Of a stretch of DNA of 42,867 bases, positions 11,394 through 35,248 are shown piece after piece. The notes under the pieces were generated by a model. That model was not told where the DNA came from and made no database searches. It saw only the letters and a list, made by a program, of their open reading frames with translations. The position numbers and the translations under genes were made by a program. Source of the DNA: Polyangium spumosum. GTDB lineage: Bacteria > Myxococcota_A > Polyangia > Polyangiales > Polyangiaceae. Position 1 is the stretch's first letter, and each line of letters begins with the position of its first letter. The stretch spans positions 1-42,867 of the forward strand of contig NZ_WJIE01000031.1 of NCBI RefSeq assembly GCF_009649845.1. Reading direction: 5' to 3'.

Positions 11394-11395
11394 GC

Positions 11396-12802: not shown

Positions 12803-15423
12803 GCGTTCCTCCGGCGCTCGGGCGGCACGAAGGTGTACTGCTGCTCGCCGTTCGGCAACCGATCCGTGGAGAAACATGGCGCCCCGACGTCATGCAGCTT
12901 GCGATGGAGCTTGGCCATCCAACCTCCCACGCGCGCGGCGGGTTTGCCCAGGACCCGCGCCACCTCGCTCATGCGTGCGCTCCCGTGTCGGGCGAGCAAC
13001 GTGAGGACCGCCCGCTCGTCAGGCTCGAGCCCCTCCATCACGTCGGCTGGGAGCCCCAGGAGTCGATCTGCATCGACCGCGAGTGCCTCGATCGACGGTC
13101 GACGATCGTAGAGGTCGGTCTGGATTGGCTTGGCTGCCGGAGGCGCCGGGGCAGCTTTCTTCTGCTGGCGGGTGGGCGCCGTGGCTTTGGCGAGAGGTTC
13201 GGCCGGCCGAACCTTCATTTCCGCGGCCGAGGCGTGCGTCGGGCCGAACCACCAAGACGGCTCACCGGCGCGGACGCCATCGCGCACGAGCCAGGCCAGC
13301 GGCACCACCATCTCCTCGAGCCCCACGCCCCCGTGAAACCCAACCTGCGGCGAACCCTGGTAAGCGCCCATGCGCCAAGCAAACGCTTTCCTGCCGGACG
13401 AGCCACCGAGTTCTTCGACGTTCACCTCGACGAACCCGTCGGGAGCAGCCTCTTTCGGACCGAGCTCGCAGAAGCGTGGGGTCGAGCCCGCCCCCACGCG
13501 CAGAGCCTTGTTCCAGAACGGAGTGTGGCCGTGATCCGCGACGACGAGAATCGAACGGCCATGCGCCAAAGCCGCCTGCAGGCTCGGGATGAAGCCGGAG
13601 ATCTGGTCCGGTTTGACCTGCAGCTGCGCTCCGGTGTTCGCTGAGCCAATTTGATCATCGATGGCATTGAACACCGCCGCGACGATTTCGATGCTCGTGT
13701 CCTGGAGCGCGCGAAGCAACGGGCCCGGCCCCTCGGCCAGATCCCCTTTCAGGAACAGCTTTCGCGTGCGATTGCCGAGCACCTTGTTCTGCTTGAATCT
13801 CGCCGGATCGGTCGACCGTTCGCCCTCCTCGCGCCAGACCGATTCGGCGGCGAGAGGGTCCTTGGGGATCTCCCCGAGGAAGATCGCGCCGCGGGCATGG
13901 CTCGTGATCGTGGGCAGGAGCGAGAGGGCGAGGAGCCCGGTCGCGCTGTCTCGCTCGGGCGCGCGAAGCCCCAAGGGCTCGCCCAGCTGCGCAAGCTCCT
14001 CGACGATCTCAACGAAAGCAGGGTAGCTGCAACCGTCGAGGACGACGAGGAAAAGGCCCTCATCCTTGGGACGCCGAAGGGCAACGTCTGTCCAGAGGCG
14101 GTGTAGCGGTACGACGCCCTCGGTCTTGTGGAGCGCCTCGACGTATCCTCGCGCGAGCGTTTTCGCGAACGCGAGATTGTCCCTGTTGCGCCGCTCCTGA
14201 TAGGCCACGAGGGCCTTCTCAGCCTGCTCATGGAACTGGGCTGTCGATGCGAGAGCGCGACGTAGCCGAGCAGCGCTCATGTCGGCAAACGCGCCGCTCT
14301 TCTGGTAACTGCGGATTCGCCCGGCGAGCTCCGGTCCCGCCTCCTCGGCGTCAGGCGTGGCGAGGTAACGCGAGAACCGGGCCATCTCCTCGAGCAGGCT
14401 GATCTCGTTGCGCATCAAGCCGGCCGCGCGGTGCTCACGCATCCACGTGATCTCGCTGCTCGGGACGGGCTCGCCACGCGCAACACGTTGCGCGACGTCC
14501 TCGCAGCGGTTCGCCAGACCGAGCGGAAGAATGGTGCTACGCGACCGCGCGTCCTTCGACAGATGGCGCCGGCCTATGGTTTCGGCCTCCGTCAGGTACT
14601 TCTTGGCGTCATCCTTCAGCTCCTCGATCGCCTCCACCGCAATGCGCGAGAGAACGCCGCGAAGGACGTCTGGAGGAACCCCGACCTGCTGATCCTTTTG
14701 CAGCGCCTCGAGCTCGCCCCAGACGGCTTCAGGGACCTCGCCATCGATCGCGAGCAGCACGCCACGCACGACGAGCGCACGCAGGCGCTCGGACGACGCG
14801 AGGGCCCACGCGAGGATGCGGCCCTCGGTCGCATGCAGGCGGGGCAGGTTGCGCCGCACCAGCTCGCGGACACTCTCGTCCCAGTCCGGCGGATGCTCCA
14901 CCCACTCGGCAAGGAGCGCGCCCGGGCTGCGCGCGCGTAGGCGCTCGCCCGAACCGAAACATACGTCGAGCAACAGCTCGTCGAGGAGCTGGCGATCGAT
15001 GACGGTGGGGTGCGTCCTTTGGCTGATCTGAGCCCGCAATGCCTCCAGGTGGTCGAGCGCGAGGCGCTGTACGGCTCTATCGTCTGTCCCGACCACCGGC
15101 ACGCCCAGCACGACGGAGAGCACGTCCTGGATGTCGAGCGCATGCACCCGCCTGCGACGCGCGCGGTGCAACAGATCCGCGGGCAAACTGCGGGCGAGGT
15201 CCGGCGGGAGAATCGCGATGAAGGGGGCACCGCTCGACTTCCACACCATGCGGCGCAGCTCGAGCTCCGTCCTTGGCCGACAAACCTCGTAGGTCGCCTG
15301 GCTCGTCTGGACCCGCTGCGGCACGCTCTCGAGCCCGTCTCCATCGAGCGCGAGCACGTACCCCTGCGCCGCCGGGCCTCCGGCCATTTCCACCAGCTTG
15401 CGCAGCAGCTCGGGCGTCTCCAT
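12799..15423 (-). CDS. pglZ: BREX type 2 alkaline-phosphatase-fold protein PglZ
   Basis: An 874-residue protein. The PglZ domain of the alkaline phosphatase superfamily spans roughly residues 450-710, with LVVLDGCSYP (~458; metal Asp), LPTITSHAR (nucleophile region), VVADHGHTPFW (~625-635; metal Asp/His) and VGFHGGVGLEEMVVP (metal His). The N-terminal 400 residues are the mostly helical BREX-2-specific region. The C-terminal ~100 residues look winged-helix-like. PglZ is the defining BREX protein and needed for exclusion in studied systems. It starts 2 bases after the pglY stop and overlaps brxD by ATGA. All metal-site motifs appear intact. Confidence 0.93.
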   Translation of the reverse strand: METPELLRKLVEMAGGPAAQGYVLALDGDGLESVPQRVQTSQATYEVCRPRTELELRRMVWKSSGAPFIAILPPDLARSLPADLLHRARRRRVHALDIQDVLSVVLGVPVVGTDDRAVQRLALDHLEALRAQISQRTHPTVIDRQLLDELLLDVCFGSGERLRARSPGALLAEWVEHPPDWDESVRELVRRNLPRLHATEGRILAWALASSERLRALVVRGVLLAIDGEVPEAVWGELEALQKDQQVGVPPDVLRGVLSRIAVEAIEELKDDAKKYLTEAETIGRRHLSKDARSRSTILPLGLANRCEDVAQRVARGEPVPSSEITWMREHRAAGLMRNEISLLEEMARFSRYLATPDAEEAGPELAGRIRSYQKSGAFADMSAARLRRALASTAQFHEQAEKALVAYQERRNRDNLAFAKTLARGYVEALHKTEGVVPLHRLWTDVALRRPKDEGLFLVVLDGCSYPAFVEIVEELAQLGEPLGLRAPERDSATGLLALSLLPTITSHARGAIFLGEIPKDPLAAESVWREEGERSTDPARFKQNKVLGNRTRKLFLKGDLAEGPGPLLRALQDTSIEIVAAVFNAIDDQIGSANTGAQLQVKPDQISGFIPSLQAALAHGRSILVVADHGHTPFWNKALRVGAGSTPRFCELGPKEAAPDGFVEVNVEELGGSSGRKAFAWRMGAYQGSPQVGFHGGVGLEEMVVPLAWLVRDGVRAGEPSWWFGPTHASAAEMKVRPAEPLAKATAPTRQQKKAAPAPPAAKPIQTDLYDRRPSIEALAVDADRLLGLPADVMEGLEPDERAVLTLLARHGSARMSEVARVLGKPAARVGGWMAKLHRKLHDVGAPCFSTDRLPNGEQQYTFVPPERRRNA

Positions 15424-15425
15424 CG

Positions 15426-18400
15426 CTACTTCTTCACCCGCACACGGATCTCGATCTCGAGGGGGGCAGCGCCCTGTTCCTGCAGTTTTTCGCGGAGGCG
15501 GCGCCAGAATGCGGTCAATGCATCGCCATCACCAGCCTGGAGGCGCTCCTCGGCGAGGATGACCTTCCACTCCTCGGAAGGGCCGGTCGCCTTGCCGCCA
15601 GAGAAACCCACGGTGGCGTCGGGCGCGGGTGGCATAGGTGACGGGCGCCTCGCGGATGGGTTGGTGAGCGGCGGCGTCTGGCGCAGAACCTCTTCGATGA
15701 GCCGGTGGGCCTCGGCGTTCCAGCTCGCGATGGCCTTGTCCGTGAGCGAGCGCTCGTGCTCTTCGGTGCCCAGGAGCTCGTGAAGCGTCTCGAAGTGCGC
15801 CCGCACGTCGTCCCCGAGCGCGCTGTGGCCCACGATGCGGCCCAGGTGATTTCTGGCCTTCTCGTCGAGCCCTTCGAGTGCCCGCTGGACGCACTCCACG
15901 GAGCGTACGACGACGCGGACGGGATCGGCTGTATCGTCGGGCCAGCGGATCAGGAGCTCGCGGAGCACGGTGCAGGAGTCGGTGCTCGAGCTCGCAAGCG
16001 GAGAGAGCCGCTGAAGGGCGTCCCGAATCGAGCGGAGACGAGGCGGTGGCTCGCCCTCGCCGAGGAGGGTCCGGATCCGACCATGGAGGCCCTCGAGCGC
16101 GATGCGCTTCTTTGTCGCCAGCTCGCGGAGATGGCGTGCGTAACGGTCCTGCTCGGCGAGTGTACGGTGGGAGGCTGGGGCTTGCCCCTCGAAGAGCGAC
16201 GGACCCAGCTCGCGGAGGCGGCTCCACTCGGCGAGCTCGAGGAGTGGAGCGCGTTCGAGGGTGACCGAGGTGCGGAGCTTCGAGTCGATCTTCACCTCGA
16301 GCGTCTCGCGCGTGACCGTGTGGAGCGCGCGGAACCCGTACGCCCGCGCGAGGAAGGCCAGGAAGAAGTTGCAGACGGCGGGCTGCAGGCCAAACTCCTT
16401 CACGAGCTGCTCATTGACGGTGTCCCACCGGACGGTCGCCTCGGTGGCGTGGCTCGATACGGCCTTGAGGTATCGCGTGTCGCGGCGCAATCCCGCGGTG
16501 GTTTGTCCTATGTCGACGAGCTCGAGAGGGATACCCAGCCCGCGCAGCACCTTGGCCGTGGCCTCGTCGAAGTGCTTTCGTTGACCTTCGGACTCGGCCG
16601 CCTCGACCATCCAGTCGCACAGCTTTTGCAGGTCCTCGGGCCGAGGCTCCATGCCGAAGCTCGGATGTTGCGAGTAACGCTTGTCGAGAAGCTCGTGCGC
16701 GAAGCGCTCGAGGTTCTTGTCGAGCTCGGGCTCCGGGACATCCGTTTTTACGTCACTGTTGAGGGGAACCACCTCACCGTGGTTCTTGTAGACCTCGCGC
16801 AGGATGTCCCGCAGGCGATTGACGAGGTTCGCTTCGTGCTTGGAGGCCTGCTCCACGACCTGCTGACGATCGTGCATGGCGAGGTTCCCCAGGAGATCCT
16901 CCTGCCCGACCGGGCTCGCAATGTACTGGGCTGCCGCAAGGTCCGCGAGCACGCTCTCCTCGGAGGGCGTGAGGTGCCGTGGGAGCCAGCAGAGCGTGAA
17001 TTGCGCACCCTCGCGCTTCCGTGCATCCCGCGCGCGTTGCCTGTCTTCCTCCACGGTGTGGCCGGGGGCGTCCCAAGGATAATCGATCAAGATGCGGAAC
17101 TCGTCCCCATCCGCAGGCTTGAAGGCGGCATTCGACAGCTCGCGGATGTTCCGCAGCGCCAGCGAGCCCTTGCGCATGGTGCCGCGCCACTTCATGCGCA
17201 GCGCATGCTCGTTGTTTTCGCCGCTCGCGAAGACGAGCTCCTTCTTGGGGCCGAGCATGTCGCTGAAGACACGGTAAAACGCGCCTGCACGCCCGCTGAC
17301 CGTGTCCATCTTGCTGCGCGCGCGGTCCATCACCTCGCCGAAGTTCGCCCCTTGGAGGACGACGCCTACGACGGCGCTCCGGCTTTTGCCGGTGAGCTGG
17401 AGTGCGGGCACGCGGCGCGAGAGCTCGACGAGATCCTGGTAGGCGCGCTCCATCCGTGCCTTGTCCATCTCGCCGGGTACGTCCACGTCGTTGAGCTGCA
17501 CGAGGCGCTCGACGCTCATGCCGCCCGAGCCGCGCAGGCGCGGCGAGACCTCGGCGAGGAGCACGGTTTTCACGAGTTGATCGAGCACGCGACGTCGCTT
17601 GTCATCGAAGCCGGTCTTCTCCTCCTCGGCCCGCCGCTTCATCTCGCCCATTGCAGGCCGGAATCGCTGATAATAGAGCTCGTGGATGGCCTTGAGCAGC
17701 CGGAAGCTCTCGCGCCGCTCGCTGCCCTCGACGCCGCTCTCGGGGAAGATCGCCTCGAAGGCGCTTCCCACGGGCAAGAACTCACCGACCGGGAGCGTCG
17801 GGTAATGGACGATGAGCAGCTCGTAGAGCAGGCGCAGAGCCGTGCGCTCGCGCTGCATCAGCGTCGAGACGTCGATGAGCATCTCGATGAGCGCCGGGTG
17901 GAAGGGGTATACGTCGCGCAGGTAAGCGACATCGGCGCCCTGGAGCAGGGTTGGCAGGAGCTTCTTGTGTCCCTCGGCCAGCGCATCGATGACCGGCTGA
18001 ACGACGTCGGGCGCTTTTCGCCGAAGAACGCGCTCCCTGCATATGTGGCGCAGCTCGACGTCCTGGAGCGTGGTGAGCTCGAAGCGCTTGGCGTGGTGGT
18101 CGAGGTGCTGGTGCAGCCCATCCTCCTGCACCATGTCCGGGAAAAATTCGCGGATGTTGCGCTGCCGGGCGACGAACACGAAGAGGGGCAGGGCGCGGCG
18201 ACCGTCGGTGTGGTCGACGAGGACGTTGAGCTGGTTGATGGCGCGCTTGAACTCGGGCCCGGTCTTCTCGCTGAGCCAGAGGAGGAGCTCGTCGACGAGG
18301 AGCACGAGGCCGCCGAAGCCCTGCGCCTTCACGTGCCGCGTGAGCCGTTGCAGGCCCTCGGCCCAGTTCGGGTCGATTCCGGCGCTCGCAGCGTCGCGGC

Positions 18401-19061
18401 CTTTGAATGAGAGGTATGCGCGTGCAAGGTCCTCGCGCTCTTCGAGGCTGCCCTGGGCCATGGTCTGGAAGTCGTCCTTCGAGGCGACGATGCCGGCGCG
18501 CTCGAGCTGGCTCCAGAAGATGTCGCCGTATTGCTCGGCTTCGCGGAGGGCCTCGTCGAGGACGCCCTGCACGTCGAGGAACTCGAACGCGGGTTTGCCG
18601 TGGTGGCGGAGGGCGACGTTGCAGGCCTCGTACACGGCACGGTCGAAACCGGTATCCGTGTGGCTGGTCGTGAGCATGTGGAGGCGGACGACGAGGAAGT
18701 GGGCGTCGCGGATCCACGCGCGGTGGCTCTTGTCGAGCTCTCCGACGAGGGGATCTCGCTTCTTCCAGGCGACCGAGTCGTCCTCGAGCAACATGCCGAG
18801 GAAGCTCATGAAATGGCTCTTGCCGGAGCCGAAGCTGCCGTGGATGAACCGGCCGAGCTCCTCGCCGCGCTGGAAAACCCGGCGCATGCCGTCGAAGATG
18901 CGGGGGAGCTCCTCGCGTACGGCAGGCGTGAGGACGTACTCGTCGACAAGGCGGCGGCGGGTGGCCTCGGCGCCTTCGGCTTCGAGGCGGACGACGAAGC
19001 CGAGGGCGGTGATTTGGTCCCGGGTGGGGAGGTCGAAGGCGTCGAGGATGGTCTGGGTCAT
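15426..19061 (-). CDS. pglY: BREX type 2 large P-loop ATPase PglY
   Basis: A 1211-residue protein typical of PglY. Walker A is GSFGSGKS at residues 75-82 and Walker B is VLLVDELLLWL (about 265-275). The long C-terminal region is helical. Residue ~1150 onward carries a Pro-rich linker and a short beta-rich end. PglY is the BREX-2 counterpart of BrxC and required for Pgl-type phage resistance in Streptomyces. The ATG at 19061 lies 38 bp after the stop of the inserted nuclease-like gene, and its ribosome site is weak. This gap and the 63-bp gap inside the insert are the largest in the operon, so a separate promoter or reduced coupling at this point is possible. Confidence 0.93.
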   Translation of the reverse strand: MTQTILDAFDLPTRDQITALGFVVRLEAEGAEATRRRLVDEYVLTPAVREELPRIFDGMRRVFQRGEELGRFIHGSFGSGKSHFMSFLGMLLEDDSVAWKKRDPLVGELDKSHRAWIRDAHFLVVRLHMLTTSHTDTGFDRAVYEACNVALRHHGKPAFEFLDVQGVLDEALREAEQYGDIFWSQLERAGIVASKDDFQTMAQGSLEEREDLARAYLSFKGRDAASAGIDPNWAEGLQRLTRHVKAQGFGGLVLLVDELLLWLSEKTGPEFKRAINQLNVLVDHTDGRRALPLFVFVARQRNIREFFPDMVQEDGLHQHLDHHAKRFELTTLQDVELRHICRERVLRRKAPDVVQPVIDALAEGHKKLLPTLLQGADVAYLRDVYPFHPALIEMLIDVSTLMQRERTALRLLYELLIVHYPTLPVGEFLPVGSAFEAIFPESGVEGSERRESFRLLKAIHELYYQRFRPAMGEMKRRAEEEKTGFDDKRRRVLDQLVKTVLLAEVSPRLRGSGGMSVERLVQLNDVDVPGEMDKARMERAYQDLVELSRRVPALQLTGKSRSAVVGVVLQGANFGEVMDRARSKMDTVSGRAGAFYRVFSDMLGPKKELVFASGENNEHALRMKWRGTMRKGSLALRNIRELSNAAFKPADGDEFRILIDYPWDAPGHTVEEDRQRARDARKREGAQFTLCWLPRHLTPSEESVLADLAAAQYIASPVGQEDLLGNLAMHDRQQVVEQASKHEANLVNRLRDILREVYKNHGEVVPLNSDVKTDVPEPELDKNLERFAHELLDKRYSQHPSFGMEPRPEDLQKLCDWMVEAAESEGQRKHFDEATAKVLRGLGIPLELVDIGQTTAGLRRDTRYLKAVSSHATEATVRWDTVNEQLVKEFGLQPAVCNFFLAFLARAYGFRALHTVTRETLEVKIDSKLRTSVTLERAPLLELAEWSRLRELGPSLFEGQAPASHRTLAEQDRYARHLRELATKKRIALEGLHGRIRTLLGEGEPPPRLRSIRDALQRLSPLASSSTDSCTVLRELLIRWPDDTADPVRVVVRSVECVQRALEGLDEKARNHLGRIVGHSALGDDVRAHFETLHELLGTEEHERSLTDKAIASWNAEAHRLIEEVLRQTPPLTNPSARRPSPMPPAPDATVGFSGGKATGPSEEWKVILAEERLQAGDGDALTAFWRRLREKLQEQGAAPLEIEIRVRVKK

Positions 19062-19098: not shown

Positions 19099-19899
19099 TC
19101 ATGTCTCTCCTTGTGGATGCTGTCCATCCGGAGCGACGGAAGCGAAGAGTGCTATTGCCGAGGGGCTCGCCGCCATGGCTGGCGGCTGTGCTGAAGGACT
19201 GGTGCGCTTCGCTGTTGAACGCGTGTAATGCTGGGTGCGTGGAGGGTTTGGTACCGGCCCCGCCTCGCCAGTGAACTTCGCTACACAAGAGAAGCCGAGG
19301 TCGAGGAAGCGAGCTGCCGGCTCTCCTGGAGGAAGACCATTAGTGATGAGGGCTGACACGGAAAATTCAGGTGAGCAGACGCGCTCAGTTAGGTCGCCGG
19401 CACTGGGAGGAGGGATCCTAAGGACTTCCACGTCGCCACGGAATTTCTCGAAGTCTCCCCTGGTTACCCTGTCTTCCTCGCGCGCCTTCCGGTGCTTGGC
19501 GTCCCAAATCGCAATGATGTTCTCGTACCTGGGGGTGGTATCACTAGTCGCTTGCTGGAGCGAGATATCAGGCGCACGTTTGGCGTCGTACGCGTCAAGA
19601 ATATAGGTGGCCATACACAGGTGAAGACGCTCACCTGATGGGACGGCCACCTCAAAGTGAGAATGTTTCCACTTGCTACCATGTCTCCCCGGTAGAGCAT
19701 GCCCCAGCTGCCCCTTTACGTATGTGATAACAGTTCCCGAACGCAGCTTCGAAATCATGAAGAAATAGCAGAGGACCTCATACAAGAAGTCGGCATCTTT
19801 GCTCTTGAGTACGTTTTCCGGAGTGTCGAATACCGGTGCCATACTGCCGATGGCATTGGCCAGTGTACCAATCTTGCTTATCAGAGAGGCGCGGTCCAC
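19099..19899 (-). CDS. PD-(D/E)XK nuclease-like protein (insert gene 3)
   Basis: A 266-residue protein. The N-terminal half is helical with an acidic residue in LYEVLCYFF (candidate first motif Glu). APDISL (around residue 112) followed by IIAIWDAKHRK (around 130) fits the P-D...(D/E)-x-K signature of restriction-endonuclease-fold proteins, with DAK as motif III. The C-terminal ~60 residues are low-complexity Ser/Pro/Thr and probably disordered. The GTG start at 19899 has GAGGA 6 bases upstream and lies 19 bases inside the previous gene. Base composition is less GC-rich than the flanking pgl genes. Possible role: a DNA-cleaving effector or a structural homologue used with the CHAT-DAC protein. 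The nuclease call rests on motif pattern only. Confidence 0.6.
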   Translation of the reverse strand: MDRASLISKIGTLANAIGSMAPVFDTPENVLKSKDADFLYEVLCYFFMISKLRSGTVITYVKGQLGHALPGRHGSKWKHSHFEVAVPSGERLHLCMATYILDAYDAKRAPDISLQQATSDTTPRYENIIAIWDAKHRKAREEDRVTRGDFEKFRGDVEVLRIPPPSAGDLTERVCSPEFSVSALITNGLPPGEPAARFLDLGFSCVAKFTGEAGPVPNPPRTQHYTRSTAKRTSPSAQPPAMAASPSAIALFASVAPDGQHPQGET

Positions 19900-20780
19900 T
19901 GTAGTTCCTCAAAGCGGCGTTCGATGGGTTTATTAAGCTCGTCGGCTATCTGTGTCAATAGGCGCTCGTCACCGAGGACAAGATCGACAATTCGTTGCGC
20001 ATGTTCACTTGCATCACCAAATGGCCGCGCATGCACCCTACGGTCATCCTTAATTGAAATGATCCACTCGCGAAACATCGGTTTCCCATCGCACTGAATG
20101 CGATCGTAGATCTGGCGAGCGCGCGACAAATAAGCGGCGGCAGGCAGGATGTGGTCCTCAAAAAAGCGCACAAGGAGCCGAGCCCGATCCTGGTATGACA
20201 CGCTACGATCACTAATGTTGGTGCCGAGCCCCATGCAGTAGGCCTGCAAGCTAAGTTGCAGCGCCCTACCCATTCTTTCATACCAGGTCATGAAGAAAGT
20301 ACGCGCAAAGAACAAGACACCATCTCTCAGGGTGATAAAGTCGTCGAGTCCAATTTTGCGGAACTGTCTATTGAAATGCACATCTGGCGAGTCGAAATTT
20401 GTTACCAATAGTAGACTGTGCGAGAATAATCGTATGGGGCGCGGCGGATTTAAATAGTTAAACGGTCCAAGCTCAAGCCGGACCGAAAATACGCCCTCGG
20501 TTCTCGATGGGCTTGTGGATTCCGCCAACAAGTCTTGCTTTGGCGCGTCGGTCGTTTTCGCGTGTTGGATGGTTGTCCACGCGTAGAACTGGATGCTTCC
20601 GTAATGGTCACGCTCGAAAATTATTGCATATGTGCCGGACTTGATTTTCGCGTCGCCGTCACGCTTTCTCATGGTCATTGAGAAAGTTTGCGGCGGGTTA
20701 CCCCGACGCCCTCCACGCGAGATGGCTAGGCGCGTTCGGTCCATGTCTAGTGCCCACGCCGTATTGTGCTGCGAGCTCAC
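19881..20780 (-). CDS. Protein of unknown function (insert gene 2)
   Basis: A 299-residue protein. The N-terminal ~140 residues look beta-rich, with aromatic-rich strands (SIQFYAWTTIQ, FSVRLELGPFNYL, FSHSLLLVTNF). The C-terminal half is helical (LQLSLQAYCMGLG, DRARLLVRFFEDHILPAAAYL). No catalytic motif, signal peptide or clear membrane span was found. GTG start at 20780 with an AGGAG-type ribosome site about 9 bases upstream. It lies 63 bp after the CHAT-DAC gene and overlaps the nuclease-like gene by 19 bases, so these two are translationally coupled. Composition is low-GC like its neighbours. It could be the target or regulator of the CHAT protease; nothing in the sequence proves this. It does not resemble bacterial gasdermins. 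Confidence 0.65.
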   Translation of the reverse strand: MSSQHNTAWALDMDRTRLAISRGGRRGNPPQTFSMTMRKRDGDAKIKSGTYAIIFERDHYGSIQFYAWTTIQHAKTTDAPKQDLLAESTSPSRTEGVFSVRLELGPFNYLNPPRPIRLFSHSLLLVTNFDSPDVHFNRQFRKIGLDDFITLRDGVLFFARTFFMTWYERMGRALQLSLQAYCMGLGTNISDRSVSYQDRARLLVRFFEDHILPAAAYLSRARQIYDRIQCDGKPMFREWIISIKDDRRVHARPFGDASEHAQRIVDLVLGDERLLTQIADELNKPIERRFEELQWTAPL

Positions 20781-20843
20781 AGCCAGCCTCTCCTCAGCGC
20801 ATATTTGTCGGACTCAAATGATGCCATCATGGTCGACGCCACG

Positions 20844-23264
20844 TCATGTCTTGCGGAATCGGACTTCGCCCTCATGGAATATCGTGACAGGACCGTCGTC
20901 GGATACGACGATGGCAACCGTCGCGCTTTCCTTCGTTATCTTCTGTGCAGACAGATGGCGGGTGCCAGCGCTCAGGGCGAGCACCTGCGTGTCTGGGGAT
21001 GGGGCCAGCTTAGCGCCTATTGCAAGGGTTCGACCATCATGCGAAAGAATGACGGCTCCATCTCCCTCGACCAGGCCAAGATACTCGTAAGGCGAAACAC
21101 TCGCCACGGGCTTATCCTTGAGCTCGTGCGTATCACTTTCCGCAATATTCTTGTAGCCAGGGTTCAGTCGCGGTTCTGCGCCATCCTTTTGCCGTATGAC
21201 GAAGATGTGGCCCTTACTCAGATCGGAGGCGACCATCGCCTTCTGCATAACATCGAGCAACACACGCTCATCGATCGACGTTCCGATCGCAAGGTCTGAA
21301 AGCACTCGTCGCAGTTCGGCGAAGTTCGAAAAGCTCCAGTTTCCCTGCCTGTATTCTCCAACCTGTTCACCAGCAACGACGAGCTTGATCCTGGATCTCT
21401 CCGGTATGATGAAGGCACAGCCCCTCTTGCTGGTTGCTGAGAACACTCCCGCCCACTTCGGATCGCCGAGGATGAACACTGCCGCGCTGTGCACGTCCAT
21501 GTCCTTCAAGCTGCCGATATGCTCGCTCTCGATATCAGTCGCCGTCGGGCGAGCGATGGCCACGAACGCCCTGTCCGTACCGTTGACCTTTATGGCCTCT
21601 CCCACGAATTTCTTCATCTCGCCGAAGAAAAATCCGGGAGGCAAGCTTTCCGACCGTTTTATCACGGGATGGTTGTCATACTCTGCCGGATCATCCCGTG
21701 CGAAGAGCACCAGTGACGTCTTGAGTTGCTGGCGTTCGTGCGTTGCGTGACACATTTCCGAGGCAAGCTTCGCGATCTTGAGAAACGGTGTCACCGGGAT
21801 CCGGGCTTCCCGTACGGTCCGAATCACTTTGGAGCCCACCTCAGCGCTGCCGAAAACGTTGAGCATCAGGGCAACGTCGCCGGGCGCCATTGATTCGAGT
21901 TCCACGTACGGAGACAGAAGCGTATCGAGGATGGAAGAGAGCTTCTCCTGCATCTTCCGCTTACCCCAGTCCTCGAAAGCCTTGACGTACTCCGTGTCGT
22001 CGAGCGGCCTGGACTCGCCACTTACACTTCTGGGGCGGTGGCCATCCTTGCTCCACGACAGGGAGCAGTTGGACTGGAACAAGACCAGGCCGAAGCACTC
22101 CTTTAGCATATGGTTGTTGAGGAAGAGATACTGACGGACCCGGGTAACGCTCTCTTCGACGGTGAGTCGCTCACGAAGCAGGTGGCGATAGAAGTTCAAT
22201 GCGACCGCATGACCGGTAGTGTCGAGCAACTCGAACTGCAAGGCAGCGACCGCATCAACTCCATTCGAGTGCAGACATTCGGCGAGACCCGAAAATGTCT
22301 CGATTGGATCCTGAGCCGCCCCGTGACATGTGCTCAAAAACACCAGGCGGACGCTTTTCGGTTCATCGATCAGGGACGCCAGGCGAAAACTGTTGACGAC
22401 GTCCATCTTCGTTCGGTCGAGTTCAGAGCACAGCGCGAGAGCGCCGAGTCCCTCACGAGGATTGAATGCTCCGTGACAACTGACATGAACGATGTGAGGC
22501 CTGAATGAAGTCAACTTTCTACGCAGCTCGTTCACTGTTGCGTTGTGGAGCACCTGGAGCTCGACGCCATGAACGACTGGCGCCTCATCCACGACGAATC
22601 GCAGCATCGACTCCTCTTTCTCGTCTTCGAGAGGAGGCAATTCGGAGGGTGAGGCCGTGACGAGAAGTATGCGCAGTGCGGCGTCGTCAGAAAGCGACTT
22701 GTGCGCAAAATCGGCTCGATTAAACAGTCGTAGTGATCTGCATGTTCTGATGTCGGATCGCTGGCACAGGAACTGGGGCAATACGCCGAATTGTGTGTCA
22801 CATAGTAGCTCCCACGGGATCATGAGGAGCTCCGGAGTCGACGTAGCGATGGTCAGACGCAGAGGCTTGCCCTTCGACGCCAGGCTCCGCAGGTGGTCAC
22901 GGATCGAACGCGTGAACACTGCGTCGAATAGGCCGGCCCCGAACTCGACACAGTCGTGAATCGAGAGCTCTCCGCCAGCGAGTCTCCGCAAGAATGACAG
23001 GAGATCCCCGGGCGAAAAGGGGAGCTGAATTGTTTCCACAGCTTCTGAGTTTGCTACCGCAACGTAATGCGGAAATTGCTCATCAGTCGTGGAAGTCGAC
23101 CCGGCCCCGACGGGCGCAGGTGCAATACGCGTGCGCCCACTGACGACAATCCTCGGCAGAGCCGCCGCCATGCTGGGCGCTGTACCCGGCGGTCGGCTCA
23201 GGAACACCTGCAAGTCTTGGGGCTCGTAGGGGGCCTTGTTCATGGTGTCTCGTTGCCCTCCCAT
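20844..23264 (-). CDS. CHAT protease fused to a DisA_N/DAC-like nucleotide domain (insert gene 1)
   Basis: An 806-residue protein. Residues ~195-400 form a CHAT (caspase-like) domain: VHVSCHGAF gives catalytic His264 and FLSTCHGA gives Cys313, with the usual LxxxGVDAVxAxQFE strand after it. Residues ~420-640 are a mixed region without assignment. Residues ~660-806 match DisA_N-type diadenylate cyclase domains: DGAVI (735-739), GTRH (767-770) and IVVSDDG (785-791), spaced 34 and 19 residues apart as in real DAC domains. Differences are Leu771 in place of the second Arg of RHR and Asp789 for the usual Glu. The ATG at 23264 directly abuts the pglX stop (TGA-ATG); ATG 23243, behind a GGAGGG, would give 799 residues. 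The domain may make, or more likely sense, a cyclic nucleotide and control the protease. Less GC-rich than pglX. Confidence 0.8.
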   Translation of the reverse strand: MGGQRDTMNKAPYEPQDLQVFLSRPPGTAPSMAAALPRIVVSGRTRIAPAPVGAGSTSTTDEQFPHYVAVANSEAVETIQLPFSPGDLLSFLRRLAGGELSIHDCVEFGAGLFDAVFTRSIRDHLRSLASKGKPLRLTIATSTPELLMIPWELLCDTQFGVLPQFLCQRSDIRTCRSLRLFNRADFAHKSLSDDAALRILLVTASPSELPPLEDEKEESMLRFVVDEAPVVHGVELQVLHNATVNELRRKLTSFRPHIVHVSCHGAFNPREGLGALALCSELDRTKMDVVNSFRLASLIDEPKSVRLVFLSTCHGAAQDPIETFSGLAECLHSNGVDAVAALQFELLDTTGHAVALNFYRHLLRERLTVEESVTRVRQYLFLNNHMLKECFGLVLFQSNCSLSWSKDGHRPRSVSGESRPLDDTEYVKAFEDWGKRKMQEKLSSILDTLLSPYVELESMAPGDVALMLNVFGSAEVGSKVIRTVREARIPVTPFLKIAKLASEMCHATHERQQLKTSLVLFARDDPAEYDNHPVIKRSESLPPGFFFGEMKKFVGEAIKVNGTDRAFVAIARPTATDIESEHIGSLKDMDVHSAAVFILGDPKWAGVFSATSKRGCAFIIPERSRIKLVVAGEQVGEYRQGNWSFSNFAELRRVLSDLAIGTSIDERVLLDVMQKAMVASDLSKGHIFVIRQKDGAEPRLNPGYKNIAESDTHELKDKPVASVSPYEYLGLVEGDGAVILSHDGRTLAIGAKLAPSPDTQVLALSAGTRHLSAQKITKESATVAIVVSDDGPVTIFHEGEVRFRKT

Positions 23265-26200
23265 TCAGCGTTTGCCGCGCCCTCTGCCGCGCACCGGCTT
23301 CGCAACGCTCCTCCCCTCCGCCCACCGCCTCCCCATCTCCTCCGTCACCCCCGCATCCCCGACCGCTCCCTTCACGATCGCCGCAAACTCCTCCGCCGCA
23401 TCCTTCGACTCCCACGCCACGTACGGCACCAGGAACCACGCTCCGTACAAGAGCCCGATCCGCTCCTCCAGCGGCACGCCCTCCGTCTCGGCCTGCTCGT
23501 CCAGCTCCAGCAGCACGCGCGCCCTTTGCCTGGGCGTCCAGCCGGCCCAGCCGAAGAGGGCGCCGGCGGGGCCTTCGCGGCGGGGGACCTCGGTGAAGGC
23601 GATGAAGCGCTCCTTGGGGACGTCGAGCTTGCCGCGGTGGTGCCAGTAGTCGGGCTTCTGGTAGTCGCTCGAGGCGTATTTCGGCGGGACCGGGATCGTG
23701 AGCTTTTCCCCGGCGTCTTCCCGGTGCTGCAGGCGCCAGGTCTCCTCCCAGGCGGCGCGCTTGACGAGGCCCTCGGGCTTGAAGACGTCGTATTTGTTGT
23801 TCGGGACGGCGTCGGCCTGGATGAGCTCGGCGGCGAGCTTTTCGAGGTCGAAATCGGCGCGGCCCTCGCGGACCTCGGCGACGGCGAGCACGGCGGGGTC
23901 GCCCTGGAGGGCGGCGGCGGCCTGGACGATGGTGAAGGGCTCCGTTCGTGTCTTCGCCCACGCCTCGATGCGATCGGCGAGCCATTCGGTGAGCGCGGCC
24001 TTTTCCTCGGCGGCGTGGTCGGGGCGGTACCAGCGGCGCTTGTAGGTGGGCTGCTCGACGAGGGCGAGGTCGCGGGAGGCCTCGGTGCGGGCGATGCGGG
24101 CCTCGACGAGGGCGCGCTCTCGGGGGTCGAGGGAGTCGGTCGTGGTGCAAGGCTGCCAGCCGTGGCGCTCGAACCAGGCGGTGGGGGCCTCGTCGGGCTC
24201 CTCGCCACGCGCGAGGGCCTCGCGGCGCTCGGCGTCGGCGCGGGCGAGGGTGATCTCGAAGGGGCGGAGGCCGGGGCGCAAGGGGGGGACGTCCTCGGGA
24301 TCGCGGACCTCGGCGTCGGGGTCGATGCCGTAGAGCTTGTAACAGAGCCAGTCGAGCTCTTCCTGGAGGCCGACCATCTTGTAGAGGGCGTCGAGGTCGC
24401 GCTGGTGACGGGCTTCGAGGGCTTTGCGGAGGGGCGCAGGGCCGGAGGTGGCGTGGGCGTTGATGGAGGCGGGGGCAGAGTCTTCGACGCGTGAGCGGGC
24501 GAGGGCGTCAATGTGGGCGGCGAAGGCTTGGAGTTGAGGGTGGCTAATTGCGGCGATAGGGACTTGCTCTACCTTGGTGGCATTGGGTCGGATACGAAGC
24601 TCCCACACCTCGTCGCTGATGCCTCGACCATTGCCACCGCCGCCCATGTCTCTACAAATCTGCCTGAGATAAAAAGCGATGGCGGAGGAATTGAGCTGCG
24701 CTAACAATGTAAGATGCTCAGCTTTCGATTCGTGGCCGAGTTTGATGATTGGGGCGCTGCGATTGAATACACTGCCGCCGCGGTCCAGGATAAAATGATT
24801 ATGTGTCGCAAACTCCGAATAGGCAATTGTTAGGGGGCTGCGAAGCTTGTCGGCGGTAAGTCGGCCAAACTCGTACCAACGCAGCCCACCCTCAACCTTC
24901 GTCTTGCCGCCAAAAAGAAGGCCGTTCGCGAGGTTCGTCCTATACAGCCATAGCAGCATTAGGCTTGGCTCAGTTGCGTCGAGTACACGCAATTCTGGTC
25001 CGTAAGGAAACATGGTGTGTTCAATTTCGCCAACAGACCAATTGCGAATGCTGTCCCCAGAAATCATCGGCCAGCAAAGGTGGCTGGGTAGCCCGATTCT
25101 TTGCCACGCTCGAAGGGGGCGTAAAAACACGTCATCTTCGAGCGTAAAGCTTGCGATACCCACGCTTTCAGCCATTCGGCTCACGATCATGTGTGCCGAC
25201 TCCTCTAGTCGCGCCTTTAGTTCCGCGGCTCCCCCACCGCCGATACTCCAAGGATGCTTCGATAATGTTTGGCGAGACACCAGTGAAACAGAAACAAATT
25301 CGTCCTCATATCCAATGGTGCGATGTCCAGCGATCAGGCTAGTCCACGCCAGCCCGCGCGATGGGTCATTCGGCGTGACTGGTTCCCCTCGCTTTTTCAT
25401 GGTGACAGGAATCACGTCAGAGGTCGGGGGCTTGGCCTTAATGAATAGCATGACTGTAGGGATGGCCGCCCCAGGGATGTAGACCCCAGAACTATCGAGG
25501 ACCTCCTTGAGATCGAAGCGAGGTAATACCTTCTCAATTAGCTCTCGGCCGAACTCGTTTTTTGTGAATGAATTGGCGGAAATTAAGCCGATGTGCCCCT
25601 GATCGGTAGAAACCTGGATCATGCGCTCCACGAACGGTGCGCACAGCGAGTACTTCCCTGATGCCGATATGTACCTCCGAGACTTCCCGACCACTTCCTT
25701 CTGATAAGCACGCTTTCGTGCATCTTTCTCAACGTCAAAGGGCGGGTTTCCCACCACCACATGGAACCCTCGCCTCAAAATCGGCCTCAGCGCTTCCCTC
25801 ACCTCCGGCCTCGTCAACAGCGCCTTCGGTTTCTCCACCTCGAATCCCATCCCCGGCAGCAATTGCTGCTCCGGCTCATCCCGCTCCACCTGCTCCAGCG
25901 CATCCGCCCAGTACACCTGCGGATGGAAATCGGAGGCCGCTGCAAGCTCGCTCTCCCTGCATAGTTCAAGCGCCGTCATCACGAGCCGCGCCCGCGCCAG
26001 CGCGCACGCGTAATCGTTGAGGTCGATCCCCACGACCCGCGCAAGACAATCCTTCACGACCTCCTTCACCGGCCGATCCCGGAACTTGTCCCGCATCCCG
26101 GCCACGAGCCGTTTGAACGCCGCAAGCAAGAAGTGCCCCGATCCACACGCCGGATCGAGCACCCGCACCGTCTCCACGCCCCATTCGTCGATCGCCGGCG

Positions 26201-26819
26201 TGAGCGTCTCGTCGAGGATGAAGTCGAGCACGAAATCCGGCGTCTGGAGTAGCGCATACCGCGCTTTGACGACCGGATCGAGGTCCTGATAGAGATCACC
26301 CATCAGCCGGCCATCGAAATGCTCGTCGTCGAACCGCCACCGCAGCGCGCCCGTGTCCGGATCCGGAGCCCTCCAGAAGCGCAAAAGGTCCTGCGAGCGC
26401 GCGTCCGAAGGCCACGCGACCTCGGCGGGCTGAGGCGAAAAGAGCTCGGGCAGACCGCCGTCGGGCGAGGCGAGGTCCGCGTAGACCCACCGCAGGTACG
26501 CCGTGTCGCCGAGGTTCGGCGCGAGGCGCTCGAAGAGGTCGTGCGACTCCCGATCGACGATCCGCAGCGGCCGGCAGAGGCCCCGATCCTCGAGCACGCG
26601 CACGTAGACCGACTTGAGCACCCAGAGCACGGCCGCGCGGCGCGCGAGGAGATCGGTCCAGACCATGAAGTCGTCGCCGACCTTCTCGTCGAGCCAGACC
26701 TGCCTGGCGCGCTCCTGGGCCTCCCCCGGGGTCCGGATCTGATCGCGCAGGTCGGCGGCGATGTCCGCGACGAGGCGGGAGAGGGCGGCGGTGAGGTCTT
26801 TGCGTTGCTGGAGGTCCAT
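23265..26819 (-). CDS. pglX: BREX type 2 adenine-specific DNA methyltransferase PglX
   Basis: An 1184-residue N6-adenine methyltransferase. The SAM-binding motif I is DPACGSGHF (~217-226) and catalytic motif IV is NPPF (358-361), preceded by a helical N-terminal domain. Residues ~370-760 are the target-recognition region and are visibly less GC-rich (24500-25700) than the ends. The C-terminal ~350 residues are charged and helical. PglX modifies host DNA so that the BREX machinery can tell self from phage. Start ATG at 26819, 8 bases after the upstream nuclease-like gene; no good ribosome site, so coupling is likely. A C7 tract lies in the coding strand (24288-24282). No frameshift is present here, so the gene is in the ON state. 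Confidence 0.93.
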   Translation of the reverse strand: MDLQQRKDLTAALSRLVADIAADLRDQIRTPGEAQERARQVWLDEKVGDDFMVWTDLLARRAAVLWVLKSVYVRVLEDRGLCRPLRIVDRESHDLFERLAPNLGDTAYLRWVYADLASPDGGLPELFSPQPAEVAWPSDARSQDLLRFWRAPDPDTGALRWRFDDEHFDGRLMGDLYQDLDPVVKARYALLQTPDFVLDFILDETLTPAIDEWGVETVRVLDPACGSGHFLLAAFKRLVAGMRDKFRDRPVKEVVKDCLARVVGIDLNDYACALARARLVMTALELCRESELAAASDFHPQVYWADALEQVERDEPEQQLLPGMGFEVEKPKALLTRPEVREALRPILRRGFHVVVGNPPFDVEKDARKRAYQKEVVGKSRRYISASGKYSLCAPFVERMIQVSTDQGHIGLISANSFTKNEFGRELIEKVLPRFDLKEVLDSSGVYIPGAAIPTVMLFIKAKPPTSDVIPVTMKKRGEPVTPNDPSRGLAWTSLIAGHRTIGYEDEFVSVSLVSRQTLSKHPWSIGGGGAAELKARLEESAHMIVSRMAESVGIASFTLEDDVFLRPLRAWQRIGLPSHLCWPMISGDSIRNWSVGEIEHTMFPYGPELRVLDATEPSLMLLWLYRTNLANGLLFGGKTKVEGGLRWYEFGRLTADKLRSPLTIAYSEFATHNHFILDRGGSVFNRSAPIIKLGHESKAEHLTLLAQLNSSAIAFYLRQICRDMGGGGNGRGISDEVWELRIRPNATKVEQVPIAAISHPQLQAFAAHIDALARSRVEDSAPASINAHATSGPAPLRKALEARHQRDLDALYKMVGLQEELDWLCYKLYGIDPDAEVRDPEDVPPLRPGLRPFEITLARADAERREALARGEEPDEAPTAWFERHGWQPCTTTDSLDPRERALVEARIARTEASRDLALVEQPTYKRRWYRPDHAAEEKAALTEWLADRIEAWAKTRTEPFTIVQAAAALQGDPAVLAVAEVREGRADFDLEKLAAELIQADAVPNNKYDVFKPEGLVKRAAWEETWRLQHREDAGEKLTIPVPPKYASSDYQKPDYWHHRGKLDVPKERFIAFTEVPRREGPAGALFGWAGWTPRQRARVLLELDEQAETEGVPLEERIGLLYGAWFLVPYVAWESKDAAEEFAAIVKGAVGDAGVTEEMGRRWAEGRSVAKPVRGRGRGKR
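24282..24288 (-). repeat. C7 homopolymer tract inside pglX
   Basis: Seven C bases in the coding strand (G7 on the plus strand) encode part of the VPPL segment, about 845 codons into pglX. In Streptomyces coelicolor, phase variation of Pgl resistance is caused by length change of a homopolymer tract in pglX. A tract of seven is short but could slip. Confidence 0.4.
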
Positions 26820-26827: not shown

Positions 26828-27421
26828 CTACGTTCGCTGGTAGAGCAGTGCTTGGAGGTGGACGGGGGTCGCCGTCCCGATGTCGACGGTCCGGTGGAGC
26901 AAGTTTGTCGAGGCCATACCCTGAGTCGCCATCTCGACGAGTCGAATCCAGGTGGTCGCGTCGAAGCCAACTCCAACGATGATGGATGTGAGCCCTACGG
27001 GACTCACCTCGGAGCTGATGGAACAGAGCTGTTCAAAATCGGATCTCCAGGACCAGAATTGCTTGTGAGGGGTCCCCGCCTGGATGGCGACTTTCAACTC
27101 CACATAAATCGTATCGTCCGAATTGGGCTCGGCACTCACCCAAAGGTCAACGCATTTGGTGGGGCCACCAGCTTGGGGCTTTCTTTCGTAGAGCGGCGCA
27201 TGATACTCGATGCCCACGTCGCCCCAGGTGCGTCCTCTACCCTCTCCCCTCCAGGGGGAGCGATTCCACTTCCTAGAGCACCAGTACGCGAGCTCCATCT
27301 TGAGCCAGCCCTCGAAGCTGCCACCGAAGGTTGCAATGCAAGCGAGCTTTTCGCGTTCCTTGGTCAAGTGCTCTGCGAACGCCTCGAATACGTCCTTCGC
27401 CGAGATCCGGTGGCTCTTCAT
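26828..27421 (-). CDS. PD-(D/E)XK-like protein between pglW and pglX
   Basis: A 197-residue protein. A helix with FEGWLKMELAYW (candidate motif I Glu) is followed by CVDLWV (~90) and IYVELKVA (~106), the D...(E)-x-K order of restriction-endonuclease folds. A WSW and FEQLCSI helix follows and then a beta-rich end. The ATG at 27421 overlaps the pglW stop as ATGA, and the stop is 8 bases before pglX, so it is coexpressed with the BREX core. BREX type 2 core sets do not include this gene, so it is an accessory. It may be a nuclease or a DNA-binding relative; the identity of the fold is inferred from the motif pattern and was not tested by a profile search. Confidence 0.6.
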   Translation of the reverse strand: MKSHRISAKDVFEAFAEHLTKEREKLACIATFGGSFEGWLKMELAYWCSRKWNRSPWRGEGRGRTWGDVGIEYHAPLYERKPQAGGPTKCVDLWVSAEPNSDDTIYVELKVAIQAGTPHKQFWSWRSDFEQLCSISSEVSPVGLTSIIVGVGFDATTWIRLVEMATQGMASTNLLHRTVDIGTATPVHLQALLYQRT

Positions 27422-30400
27422 ACGATCCCCGGAATCTCGCCGAGCAGCGGCAACGTCGCCCCATCCAGATTGAACACCGGCGCCTTCTCGTTGAAGAGCA
27501 CCTGCCTCTTCTGGATGATCCCCGGAACCACGAGCGCCCAGAACCCCCGCGACCCGGAAAGCGTCTCGTCGTAGAGCCTGCGCACGAGGTGCAGCGCATC
27601 ACACGTGCCCAGAATGGCCGCATCCCCCACGACCACCACATTCCCCGGTTTGCCGTGCCGATCGAGGAGCGCCGCGAGCAGTGATTCCGCAGCCCGCGTG
27701 AGCTTCTTCCTTTGCGCCTTGAACCGCTCGGCGCGCACGTACTCCTCGAACCCCTCGTGCTCCATCCGCTCGAGCAGCTCGTGCTCGAACCGCACGAAGA
27801 TCGCCTCCGGACCGAGCGCCTTGCGCACGCTCTCCGCGACCGCCACGTGTTTTTCCGGAGGCGCGACGATGAGGCGGTATCCCCGGGCCCGCGCCGCCGA
27901 ACGCAGCATTTCCCCCGCGATCTCCTCGGGAGACTTGGCCTCTGTCCGAAGCTCGGGGGGCAGGGGATCCTGCTCGTGGGTATTCGCCTCGATCCCTTTC
28001 CCGCCCGCGGCCACGACGCGATCCCCTTCGAGCCGGCAATCGGGAATCTTGCCAAAGATCTCCGGGAGCTGTGCGGCCTCGGGCCAGATCAGGGCCTCGC
28101 CGAAGGCTTGTTCGAGATCCTGGCGGAGGTCGTCGAGCGTGACGGGGAGGCGAAGGCGGCGAAGGGCATACAGAATCGCCCGCTCGGGGTAGATCGGCGT
28201 CTCGAAGAGCTCTCCCGCATCCGTGAGTCGGAGATCGGAGAGCAGGCGGACCGCGAGGGCGAGCGGATCGAGGTCGTACTCGGGCAAGAGCGGGCGCAAG
28301 GAGCGGCGCGCGGGTTCGGCTTCGGAGAGGGGCCATATGCGCGCGATCTCCCGGGCGGCATCGAGGAAGGTGCGGAGCGTGCTGGCCGAGAAGTGCGGGC
28401 GCAGGAGGAGCGGAACCGAGACGTCGGACAAGGGATCGAGCCACGTCAGCGAGGCCGCATGCCGCCGCGCGAGAAGACGCAAGAGGCCCATGGGCTCGAT
28501 GTCATCGCCGCGCGGGAAACGACCATCGATCGCGCTCACGGCTTCGTCGGCGCGAAGGATGCCGCCGGCTGCGCCGAGGTGCGCTTCGACGAGCTCGACG
28601 ACGTCCTCGAGCGTACGAGCGTCGAGGAGATCGAGGGCACGGCCAAGCGCGCGGCTCACCTCGGACTGGGAGACGACGAGCTCCGCGGCGACTTGCTGTT
28701 GCGTCTGAACGGGGCCACGGAAGCCGAAGAGGGCTTCCACGACCGCGAGCTGGTAACCCTGCAAGGGACGCGCCGCGCGTGCCCAGATCGCTTCGAGCGA
28801 CGCGGGCGGGCCTTCCCCGGCGCTGCGCTCCGCGAAGGACTGGAGCGCGTGGACGATCTGAACGACGCTGTTCTTGCTGACGCCGGAGATGCCTTCGAGG
28901 TCTTCCCGGGTAGCGTCGGCGAGCCTGCCGACCGTCGTGAGCCCGTGGCGGACCAGCGTGTCTGTGAGCTTCTCGGACAAACCGAGCCCGTGAACGGGAG
29001 CGGGATCGCCGATGAGCGTGGGCCAGAGCGGTTTGCGTTCGGTGGAGACGTCCGTGGATGGCGCAACGCCCTGCTCGATCAGCGCTCGCCGTAACGCGAG
29101 CACCTCGCCACACTTCTTGGTGCCGAGGTTCGGGAGGCGGCGGACTCGCTCCTCGTCGAGCGCGACGAGCTCGCCTTGCGTGTGGATGCCCGAGCGACGA
29201 AGGACGGTGACGGAAGCCGCAGACAGAGACGTCGCGCTGAGCGGCGTACGCGCGCTGTCCGAGGGGTTCTCGGGCTTGGGCGGTGGTGCAGAGGTTGGCC
29301 TGCGTCCGCCGAACGCCTCGAGAAGCGCCGCGCGCATGGCCACGGCAGAGGCGTAACGGCGCTCGGGTTGGGGATCGAGCGCCTTGCGGAAGAACGGCAC
29401 GAGGCCAGGCGGCTCGAGCTCGTCGTCCTCGATGGCGGGCAGCTCGCCCGGCGCAGGCGCGCGGCCATCGAACGCGTGGCGGCCCGCGTAGAGCTCGAAA
29501 AGGCAGAGCGCCGCCGCGTAGCGATCCGACTCGTGGCTCCACACGCGCAGCGCGGGATCACGGTAGAGCGAGGTGCCGACGAGCATCTCGTCGACGGGCG
29601 TGCCAGCGAGCGAAAAGTCGATGAGCGTGAGGCCCTCGTCACCCACGACGAGGTTGTCCGGCTTGATGTCCTTGTGCGTGATGCTGCGCTCTTCGAGGTA
29701 CGCGAGCGCGGCGAGGAGATCCTCGGCGTAGCGGCGCAGGACACGTGTGTCGGGGTCGGGATGATCGAGGAGCCAGCGGGAGAGGGACTGCCCGCGCACG
29801 CGCTCCATGACCATCGTGAGCCGGTCGCGGATCACGTTCGAGAGATCGACAACCTTGACGACGTTCGGATGATCGAGCCCGACGAGCGCCTTGTACTCGT
29901 TCCGGAGCGCTTCCTCGGCATGCTCGTCAGGCCGCGCGACCTTGAGCGCTCGCGTCGAGCCGCTGACGAGATGCCGCGCGGCGTAGACCGTGGCGAGGCC
30001 GCCAGCACCCAGGCGACCGCGGATCTCGTAGTCCGGGCCGATACGCGTCCCTTCCTCGAGGTTCTCGGGATCGAACGCCGGGGCGGGCTTCGTGTCGGCG
30101 ACGCTCATCGCCCGTCCTTCGACGGCGCGAAGCACGGCCTTGATGGCCTCCTCGACACTCGTGAACCGATCCGCGGGCCGCAGCGCGAGCATGCGGGAAA
30201 CGGCTTCATCGAGGCTCTGCGAGGCAATCCCGCCCATGACGTCGCGCAGGCGCGGCACGTGGCCATGGCGGCGCAGGAGCTCCTGCGTGGAGTCGAAGAG
30301 CGGGCGCTTGGCGACGAGGAAGGCCAGCAGCGCGCCAAGGCCGAACTGATCGCTGCGAGGCTCGGCGCTGGAGAAGCCCTGCACGACCTCGGGAGCGGCC

Positions 30401-35194: not shown

Positions 35195-35248
35195 ACAGGG
35201 CGGCAGCAATTCACTGGTATTCAGCGGGGATAAGAGCGACGGCAAAGG

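Follow-up and report, generated by a model that had tools for sequence, protein, structure and literature searches.

A CHAT protease fused to a diadenylate cyclase-fold domain in a BREX type 2 operon of Polyangium spumosum, a candidate acquired defence cassette

In the SAVED-CHAT effectors of the cyclic-oligonucleotide-based anti-phage signalling system (CBASS) and of type III clustered regularly interspaced short palindromic repeats (CRISPR) systems, a CHAT protease and a nucleotide-sensing domain are found in one and the same protein. The gene considered here, which we call CHAT-DAC, is a variant on this known theme, in which a nucleotide sensor is coupled with a CHAT protease: it lies within a type 2 bacteriophage exclusion (BREX) operon on contig NZ_WJIE01000031.1 of Polyangium spumosum (assembly GCF_009649845.1; the window is the whole stretch analysed, positions 1 to 42,867 of the forward strand), and joins a CHAT protease to a domain with the predicted fold of the diadenylate cyclases (DAC). 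As in SAVED-CHAT, the protease shares its chain with a domain of nucleotide-sensing type, and SAVED_CHAT is the sole PADLOC match of the protein at E 0.01 (residues 180-369); this match, however, covers the CHAT part only, and the C-terminal position is occupied by a DAC fold instead of SAVED. Membership of the SAVED-CHAT family was rejected, as Pfam gives no SAVED match at E values up to 1. Borvo is another named CHAT system, according to the accessible text of its description (PMC10952713); for our protein, SAVED_CHAT was the only match among the models of the PADLOC release used, which may or may not include one for Borvo. With respect to CBASS, no SMODS match was found in the genome of P. 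spumosum at E 0.01, in a search confined, among the cyclase families, to SMODS.

Two further groups are close to CHAT-DAC through its second domain. DS-2 is an anti-phage system composed of a phospholipase, a cGAS-like enzyme and a DAC, which its authors term a cyclase, and mutation of two predicted catalytic residues of this DAC abolishes phage defence, as stated in the accessible part of the article (PMC13092281). Our protein and DS-2 have in common a DAC domain in an anti-phage setting, but the DAC of CHAT-DAC is fused to a protease and situated in BREX, it reaches 11.8 bits with the DS-2 family NF053872 against a cut-off of 630, and the family scans of the operon, with the SMODS search of the genome, revealed neither a phospholipase nor an SMODS-type gene in its neighbourhood. 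The DACNV-DAC predicted sensors (PF21751) share with it a variant DAC with the same altered motifs; they differ in that CHAT-DAC carries CHAT and has no DACNx domain detectable at E 1.

As regards BREX itself, extra effector genes inside its operons, mainly nucleases, have been proposed as back-up suicide arms, in the sections accessible of PMC12839542. CHAT-DAC is likewise an extra gene inside a BREX operon, although it encodes a protease where that catalogue is one of nucleases; the main text of the same article holds no relevant mention of CHAT, DAC, diadenylate or caspase, and where it mentions "peptidase" or "protease", this is in connection with MoxR-vWA systems or with the part of BrxL that resembles Lon. 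It also records that PorX, a relative of the PglZ domain, cuts cyclic and linear oligonucleotides. No report of a CHAT-DAC pairing was found in the literature searched, and surveys of DAC architectures or nucleotide systems beyond that search could already list one.

The reading that we favour, with a probability of roughly 0.57, is that CHAT-DAC and the two orphan genes that follow it constitute an acquired defence cassette lodged between pglX and pglY of the BREX-2 operon, in which a DAC-fold sensor would gate the CHAT protease. Our confidence is moderate because there is one example and no orthologue was found in the genomes searched.

Two domains in one chain

The gene and its C-terminal domain are located as follows:

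20844..23264, minus strand: CHAT-DAC fusion gene, 806 residues, with CHAT at about 110-381 (dyad H264/C313), a defence-type DAC at about 664-806, and no family assigned to 400-660

20847..21275, minus strand: DAC-fold domain (residues 664-806), with a Pfam DAC match above cut-off, an AlphaFold model, and Foldseek and VIA matches to CdaA/DisA

The reading frame opens with an ATG at 23264 and its stop ends at 20844. PF12770 (CHAT) matches residues 110-381 at E 1.8e-26 (93.7 bits), and PF02457 (DAC) residues 734-800 at E 1.4e-11 (44.4 bits), over positions 54-118 of the 119 of that profile; the curated Pfam cut-offs being 24 and 27 bits, respectively, both domains stand above them in a single chain of 806 residues, and the original prediction of a CHAT protease fused to a DisA-type domain is thus borne out. 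His264 and Cys313, which it had named as the catalytic dyad, are found where it placed them and are invariant in the five CHAT sequences aligned (5/5), so that by domain and dyad this half of the protein is a predicted caspase-like protease. In the other half, the DAC motifs are DGA (735-737), GTRHLSA (767-773, with GTRHL at 767-771) and VSDDGP (787-792, with VSDD at 787-790). Of two profiles built without CHAT-DAC, the one from six defence-type DACs gives it a score of 50.7 and the one from 13 ordinary DACs a score of 37.0, figures far above chance, since the best of 2000 shuffles of CHAT-DAC reached 12.0 and 7.0, respectively. DACNx had also been named among the families to look for, and on this point the profile search was negative, finding CHAT and DAC and no DACNx match at E 1. 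Residues 400-660 match no family in the Pfam scans.

The DAC fold that had been proposed for the C-terminus is recovered by structure prediction. AlphaFold, run template-free on residues 664-806 with a four-sequence alignment, gave a model with a predicted local distance difference test (pLDDT) score of 71.3 and a predicted template modelling (TM) score of 0.69, this being the one confident model of five, with the other four at pLDDT 41-50. The longer stretch 385-806 (four sequences) yielded a pLDDT of 31.5, from which no conclusion was drawn, and it was the trimming to 664-806, with realignment, that made a usable model possible. Compared with the PDB by Foldseek, the model finds the solved structures of CdaA, CdaM and DisA (E 2.9e-7 at best; in the 50 matches listed, the TM-scores by query lie between 0.57 and 0.70). 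In VIA, the first 40 matches have Z values of 11.6-15.2, and match 41, the first that is not of DAC type, falls to 3.2; individually, 2fb5 gives Z 15.2, CdaA with AMP Z 14.5 (root mean square deviation 2.7 over 129 positions) and DisA Z 12.6. By title, 2fb5 is a hypothetical membrane protein and 3c1y a DNA damage sensor, the rest being CdaA, DacA, DacM, CdaM, DisA or diadenylate cyclase. Residues 664-806 are therefore modelled, by both comparisons, with the DAC fold.

Sensor or cyclase

When the DAC of CHAT-DAC, aligned with that of one relative, was searched against the 377 genomes of the phylum, matches were obtained in 12 of them, its own included. In a tree of 20 DAC sequences, CHAT-DAC among them, seven defence-type DACs, to which CHAT-DAC belongs, separate from 13 ordinary ones with support 100/99; three loci (L086, L087 and L091) were left out, not being caught by the motif pattern, the best match of the DAC stretch of L086 being DacZ, and the label "ordinary" or "CdaA-type" of the 13 rests on their motifs and not on family scans. 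The second arginine of the RHR motif is absent from all seven defence-type DACs and present in 13/13 of the ordinary ones, CHAT-DAC having RHL at 769-771; the second glutamate of VSEE is aspartate in 7/7 and glutamate in 13/13, CHAT-DAC having VSDD; and DGA is kept in 7/7. Among the six nearest relatives of its DAC, DGA is found in all (6/6), and the second motif reads GTRH in three, GARH in two and GARY in one. An ordinary DisA/CdaA identity for this domain was ruled out by the altered motifs and the tree. The original prediction had held that the changes from RHR to RHL and from VSEE to VSDD favour sensing, and these changes prove to be common to an entire group of DACs (7/7); because both residues are lost throughout the group, nucleotide sensing appears likelier than synthesis for the domain of CHAT-DAC.

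The same group has links to described families. The DAC stretches of two defence-type relatives match NF053872 at 2.1e-22 (79 bits) and 5.8e-13 (48 bits), bits that were obtained from pieces of 79 and 70 residues and are to be read beside a cut-off of 630 set for whole proteins, and a third relative matches it at E 6.4e-8; judging from these matches, DS-2 may share the altered RHR. Two members of the group carry DACNV, which Pfam labels "probable sensor domain", and one relative matches DACNK (PF21753) weakly, at E 0.049. Apart from this, stand-alone DACNV-DAC proteins of one Verrucomicrobia genome (L096, 5062-6288) and of one Polyangiaceae genome (L095, 2666-3820) were observed to have the motifs GGTRHQSA and SQD.

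The alternative that survives best, although we regard it as unlikely, is that the DAC is still an enzyme which, with Asp790 in place of the catalytic glutamate, produces a nucleotide signal, cyclic or linear, to which CHAT responds in cis or which it passes on. Mutation of the RHR motif inactivates DisA, and this weighs against an enzyme in a group where the second arginine is missing in 7/7; moreover, no separate receptor gene for such a signal was recognised in the operon by Pfam, PADLOC or NCBIfam. What keeps the enzyme in consideration is that all seven retain DGA and have a carboxylate residue in the second place of VSEE (7/7 for both), and that DS-2 defence, according to the accessible part of its description, is lost on mutating the two predicted catalytic DAC residues (PMC13092281).

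As for what a sensing domain would read, the genome of P. spumosum has exactly two PF02457 proteins, one ordinary DAC and CHAT-DAC itself, and this, together with the negative SMODS search, leaves the housekeeping DAC as the only recognised source of a cyclic dinucleotide.

The pglX–pglY slot and the operon

CHAT-DAC is the first of three genes of lower guanine-plus-cytosine content (GC) that separate pglX from pglY, a circumstance that the original prediction, which stands in part, had not seen:

19099..23264, minus strand: the three genes as a whole, a stretch of lower GC between pglX and pglY (from gene GC, GC at third codon positions (GC3) and the sliding profile)

19881..20780, minus strand: P0008, orphan of up to 299 residues from a GTG start, in second place in the insert, GC 0.529

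19099..19899, minus strand: P0009, orphan of up to 266 residues (GTG start), third gene of the insert, GC 0.567

CHAT-DAC having a GC of 0.574, the three genes have GC3 values of 0.59-0.67, against a GC of 0.64-0.68 and a GC3 of 0.76-0.86 in six core BREX genes (pooled GC3, 0.64 for the insert vs 0.81 for the core), and the sliding profile has a trough from about 19.0 to 23.0 kb. The insert is thus apparently acquired; the composition, weak evidence in itself, is no more than supportive of a foreign origin. Neither orphan has a relative in plasmids or in 355 other genomes. P0008 finds nothing below E 0.1 in any of Pfam, PADLOC, NCBIfam and PHROGs, and is a possible substrate or partner of the CHAT protease; P0009 belongs to no family of Pfam, PADLOC or NCBIfam and has a weak PHROG match (E 0.011), and its PDIS...IIAIWDAKHRK, read by eye, is possibly the core of a PD-(D/E)XK nuclease. 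Opposite the 3′ end of CHAT-DAC, on the plus strand, ARAGORN places an antisense tRNA-Pro (20822-20919), a call that is probably false, as Rfam gives no match at its gathering threshold, and on the same evidence it was rejected as an attachment site.

That other cargo is found in this position was seen in a survey of the phylum, in which 26 of the 377 genomes have a BREX-2 PglX, P. spumosum included; to their loci were added six plasmid-borne ones, giving 21 other loci readable across the slot, a count that leaves out ten without both pglX and pglY visible (L050, L064, L069-L075 and L077). Nine of the 21 hold non-core open reading frames (ORFs), so that the slot is a recurrent site of cargo; 11 are empty, and one (L055), with rearranged core genes, was counted neither as empty nor as cargo. 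In the eight of the nine cargo loci from which the ORFs were scanned (L110 being left out), the slot is occupied six times by candidate defence modules of PADLOC: HEC-01 (L058, L060 and L066), HEC-02 (L105) and PDC-M28 (L106 and L107). These modules share with CHAT-DAC the place that they occupy, but they are other proteins, and the members scanned match ATPase-type families. The remaining two carry a NERD-helicase protein (L057, where the stretch ends within a fragmentary pglY and the scan covered one ORF of the five in the slot) and an M78-type peptidase (L067). The plasmid examples with named cargo are from Pseudomonadota, and the other loci from the phylum of the window. CHAT-DAC has no BLAST match in the BREX-2 loci surveyed.

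The operon itself has the order pglW, P0003, pglX, CHAT-DAC, P0008, P0009, pglY, pglZ, brxD and a helicase at the brxHI place, all on the minus strand and with short gaps. The BREX type 2 setting that had been recognised earlier is confirmed by profile matches of PglW, PglX, PglY, PglZ and BrxD, and so is the abutment of the CHAT-DAC start on the preceding gene: the TGA of pglX is followed directly by the ATG, with 0 nt between them, and because the ATG touches the stop the two genes are probably translationally coupled. The remaining features are:

31519..32586, minus strand: gene lying upstream of pglW; 12 of the other BREX-2 loci examined have a relative of it, eight of them at E below 1e-5

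27418..31515, minus strand: pglW (NERD, two kinase stretches, RNA polymerase alpha C-terminal-domain-like, from Pfam); PADLOC PglW 1.2e-136, NF033442 1.2e-128, below cut-off

26828..27421, minus strand: P0003, orphan gene between pglW and pglX, 197 residues, where CVDLWV...IYVELKV is, by eye, a possible PD-(D/E)XK core

23265..26819, minus strand: pglX, BREX-2 adenine methyltransferase; NF033451 5.9e-282, above cut-off

15426..19061, minus strand: pglY (BrxC-type ATPase); PADLOC BrxC-PglY 2.7e-152, NF047891 2.1e-88, below cut-off

12799..15423, minus strand: pglZ; NF033446 9.6e-75, above cut-off

11396..12877, minus strand: brxD ATPase; NF033438 1.9e-154, above cut-off; true start probably within the 79-nt overlap with pglZ

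9270..11663, minus strand: helicase at the brxHI place, assigned from its Pfam domains (DEAD, Helicase_C, WH_Lhr) and position and not from a BREX-specific profile; true start probably later than the listed TTG

The gene at 31519-32586, which has no Pfam or PADLOC family, may be an overlooked component of BREX-2. Within pglX, a stretch of low GC (0.54-0.60) at 24401-25400 is possibly an exchanged target-recognition region. Elsewhere on the contig, a bpMoxR ATPase followed by a vWA protein (38825-41143, plus strand) forms a conflict-type MoxR-vWA pair, and RadC-like JAB and DUF6573 proteins (35088-35921 and 40687-41541, both on the plus strand) are possible genes of a mobile element or island around BREX.

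A second alternative is that CHAT-DAC is a regulatory part of this BREX system, acting for instance in the processing or removal of PglX, PglY or PglZ, and not a member of an independent cassette. The probable translational coupling, the single strand and the short gaps speak for it; we nevertheless consider it less likely than a surviving enzyme, for the slot is empty in 11 of the 21 other readable loci and elsewhere filled with unrelated candidate defence modules, and the GC of the insert differs from the averages of the core genes.

Rarity of the fusion and meaning of the cassette

The original prediction had looked to homologues with the same fusion in the same BREX position, and in this it finds no second example in the genomes searched. 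Searches with the full protein in 97 genomes of relatives and in 183 genomes of the order (its own included in both) gave, apart from itself, CHAT-only or DAC-only partial matches, and partial matches of the same two kinds, none with both domains, were obtained in plasmids and phages. The C-terminal half recovered itself and DAC-only matches in four others among the 377 genomes of the phylum (own included), and one weak DisA match in plasmids; scans of viral contigs (with CHAT-DAC or its DAC, a CHAT alignment and ordinary DACs) confirmed nothing, and a short-pattern scan of genome contigs gave three DAC-only loci and no fusion. The searches cover a small part of the known bacteria and, the pattern scans being low in sensitivity, this absence is not proof.

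Several points weigh against the acquired cassette with a DAC-fold sensor: (i) the genomes searched offer no second CHAT-DAC fusion by which conservation of the fusion, or of its link with BREX, could be judged, and, no CHAT having been found in another BREX locus among those surveyed either, the link rests on one operon; in the 25 other BREX-2 genomes a CHAT profile finds CHAT in 22, and on a contig with pglX once (G347), at about 44 kb, some contigs being short; (ii) P0008 and P0009 have no detectable relatives in the plasmids and genomes already cited, which leaves the joint transfer of the three genes a presumption; (iii) among 219 windows of 267 codons taken from the core, GC3 goes down to 0.566, lower than in any of the CHAT-DAC windows listed (0.633-0.749), and the low-GC stretch of pglX at 24.4-25.4 kb weakens the argument from composition; (iv) the tree tool warned of long branches meeting, among them the row of CHAT-DAC (2.27), which the tree includes, so that its exact place within the seven is unsure; (v) CHAT-DAC itself has no DACNx domain and matches NF053872 at E 0.053, well under the cut-off; and (vi) the DS-2 mutants fit synthesis as well as sensing, since the authors call that DAC a cyclase.

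Least likely of the three alternatives is that the DAC is a mere dimerisation scaffold or a decaying remnant, with the protease triggered by another part (the 400-660 stretch or the orphan proteins), for in spite of the long branch of this DAC and of a 400-660 stretch that matches no family and lacks a usable model, D735-A737, R769, S772-A773, S788 and D790 are kept in 7/7 and H770 and G791 in 6/7, at an identity to the relatives of about 35%.

If we accept the cassette with a gating sensor, its functioning could be imagined as follows. The DAC domain would have ceased to be a c-di-AMP (cyclic di-AMP) synthase to become a nucleotide-binding sensor, and the cassette, owing to its place between pglX and pglY, would be expressed with BREX. 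The DAC-like pocket would bind an adenine nucleotide, whether c-di-AMP from the one ordinary DAC enzyme of the cell, ATP, or a nucleotide altered by infection; a change in this nucleotide would alter the pairing of the DAC domains and thereby free or assemble the CHAT domain, which would cut its target, perhaps P0008 or P0009, and this cleavage would lead to arrest or death if BREX fails. A fail-safe role for BREX would fit the position of the gene, and is put forward as a conjecture.

One could go further, to a possible but doubtful proposal: that we are dealing with a new nucleotide-gated immune protease, in which a DAC-fold sensor descended from c-di-AMP synthases would have replaced SAVED as the trigger of CHAT in guarding BREX, and in which the orphan neighbours would be a protease-activated substrate and an effector, one of them possibly a PD-(D/E)XK nuclease. 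In such a protease, the ligand could be the c-di-AMP of the host, its level influenced by PglZ, a relative of PorX.

Since the DAC of CHAT-DAC shares a chain with its output domain, the question of whether defence-type DACs sense or synthesise becomes directly testable here. If the favoured reading is true, DAC-fold domains would be immune sensors that switch a protease, linking chemistry of the c-di-AMP type with caspase-like cell suicide, and BREX would gain a back-up arm based on a protease. The pglX–pglY slot is, besides, a practical place in which to look for new defence modules.

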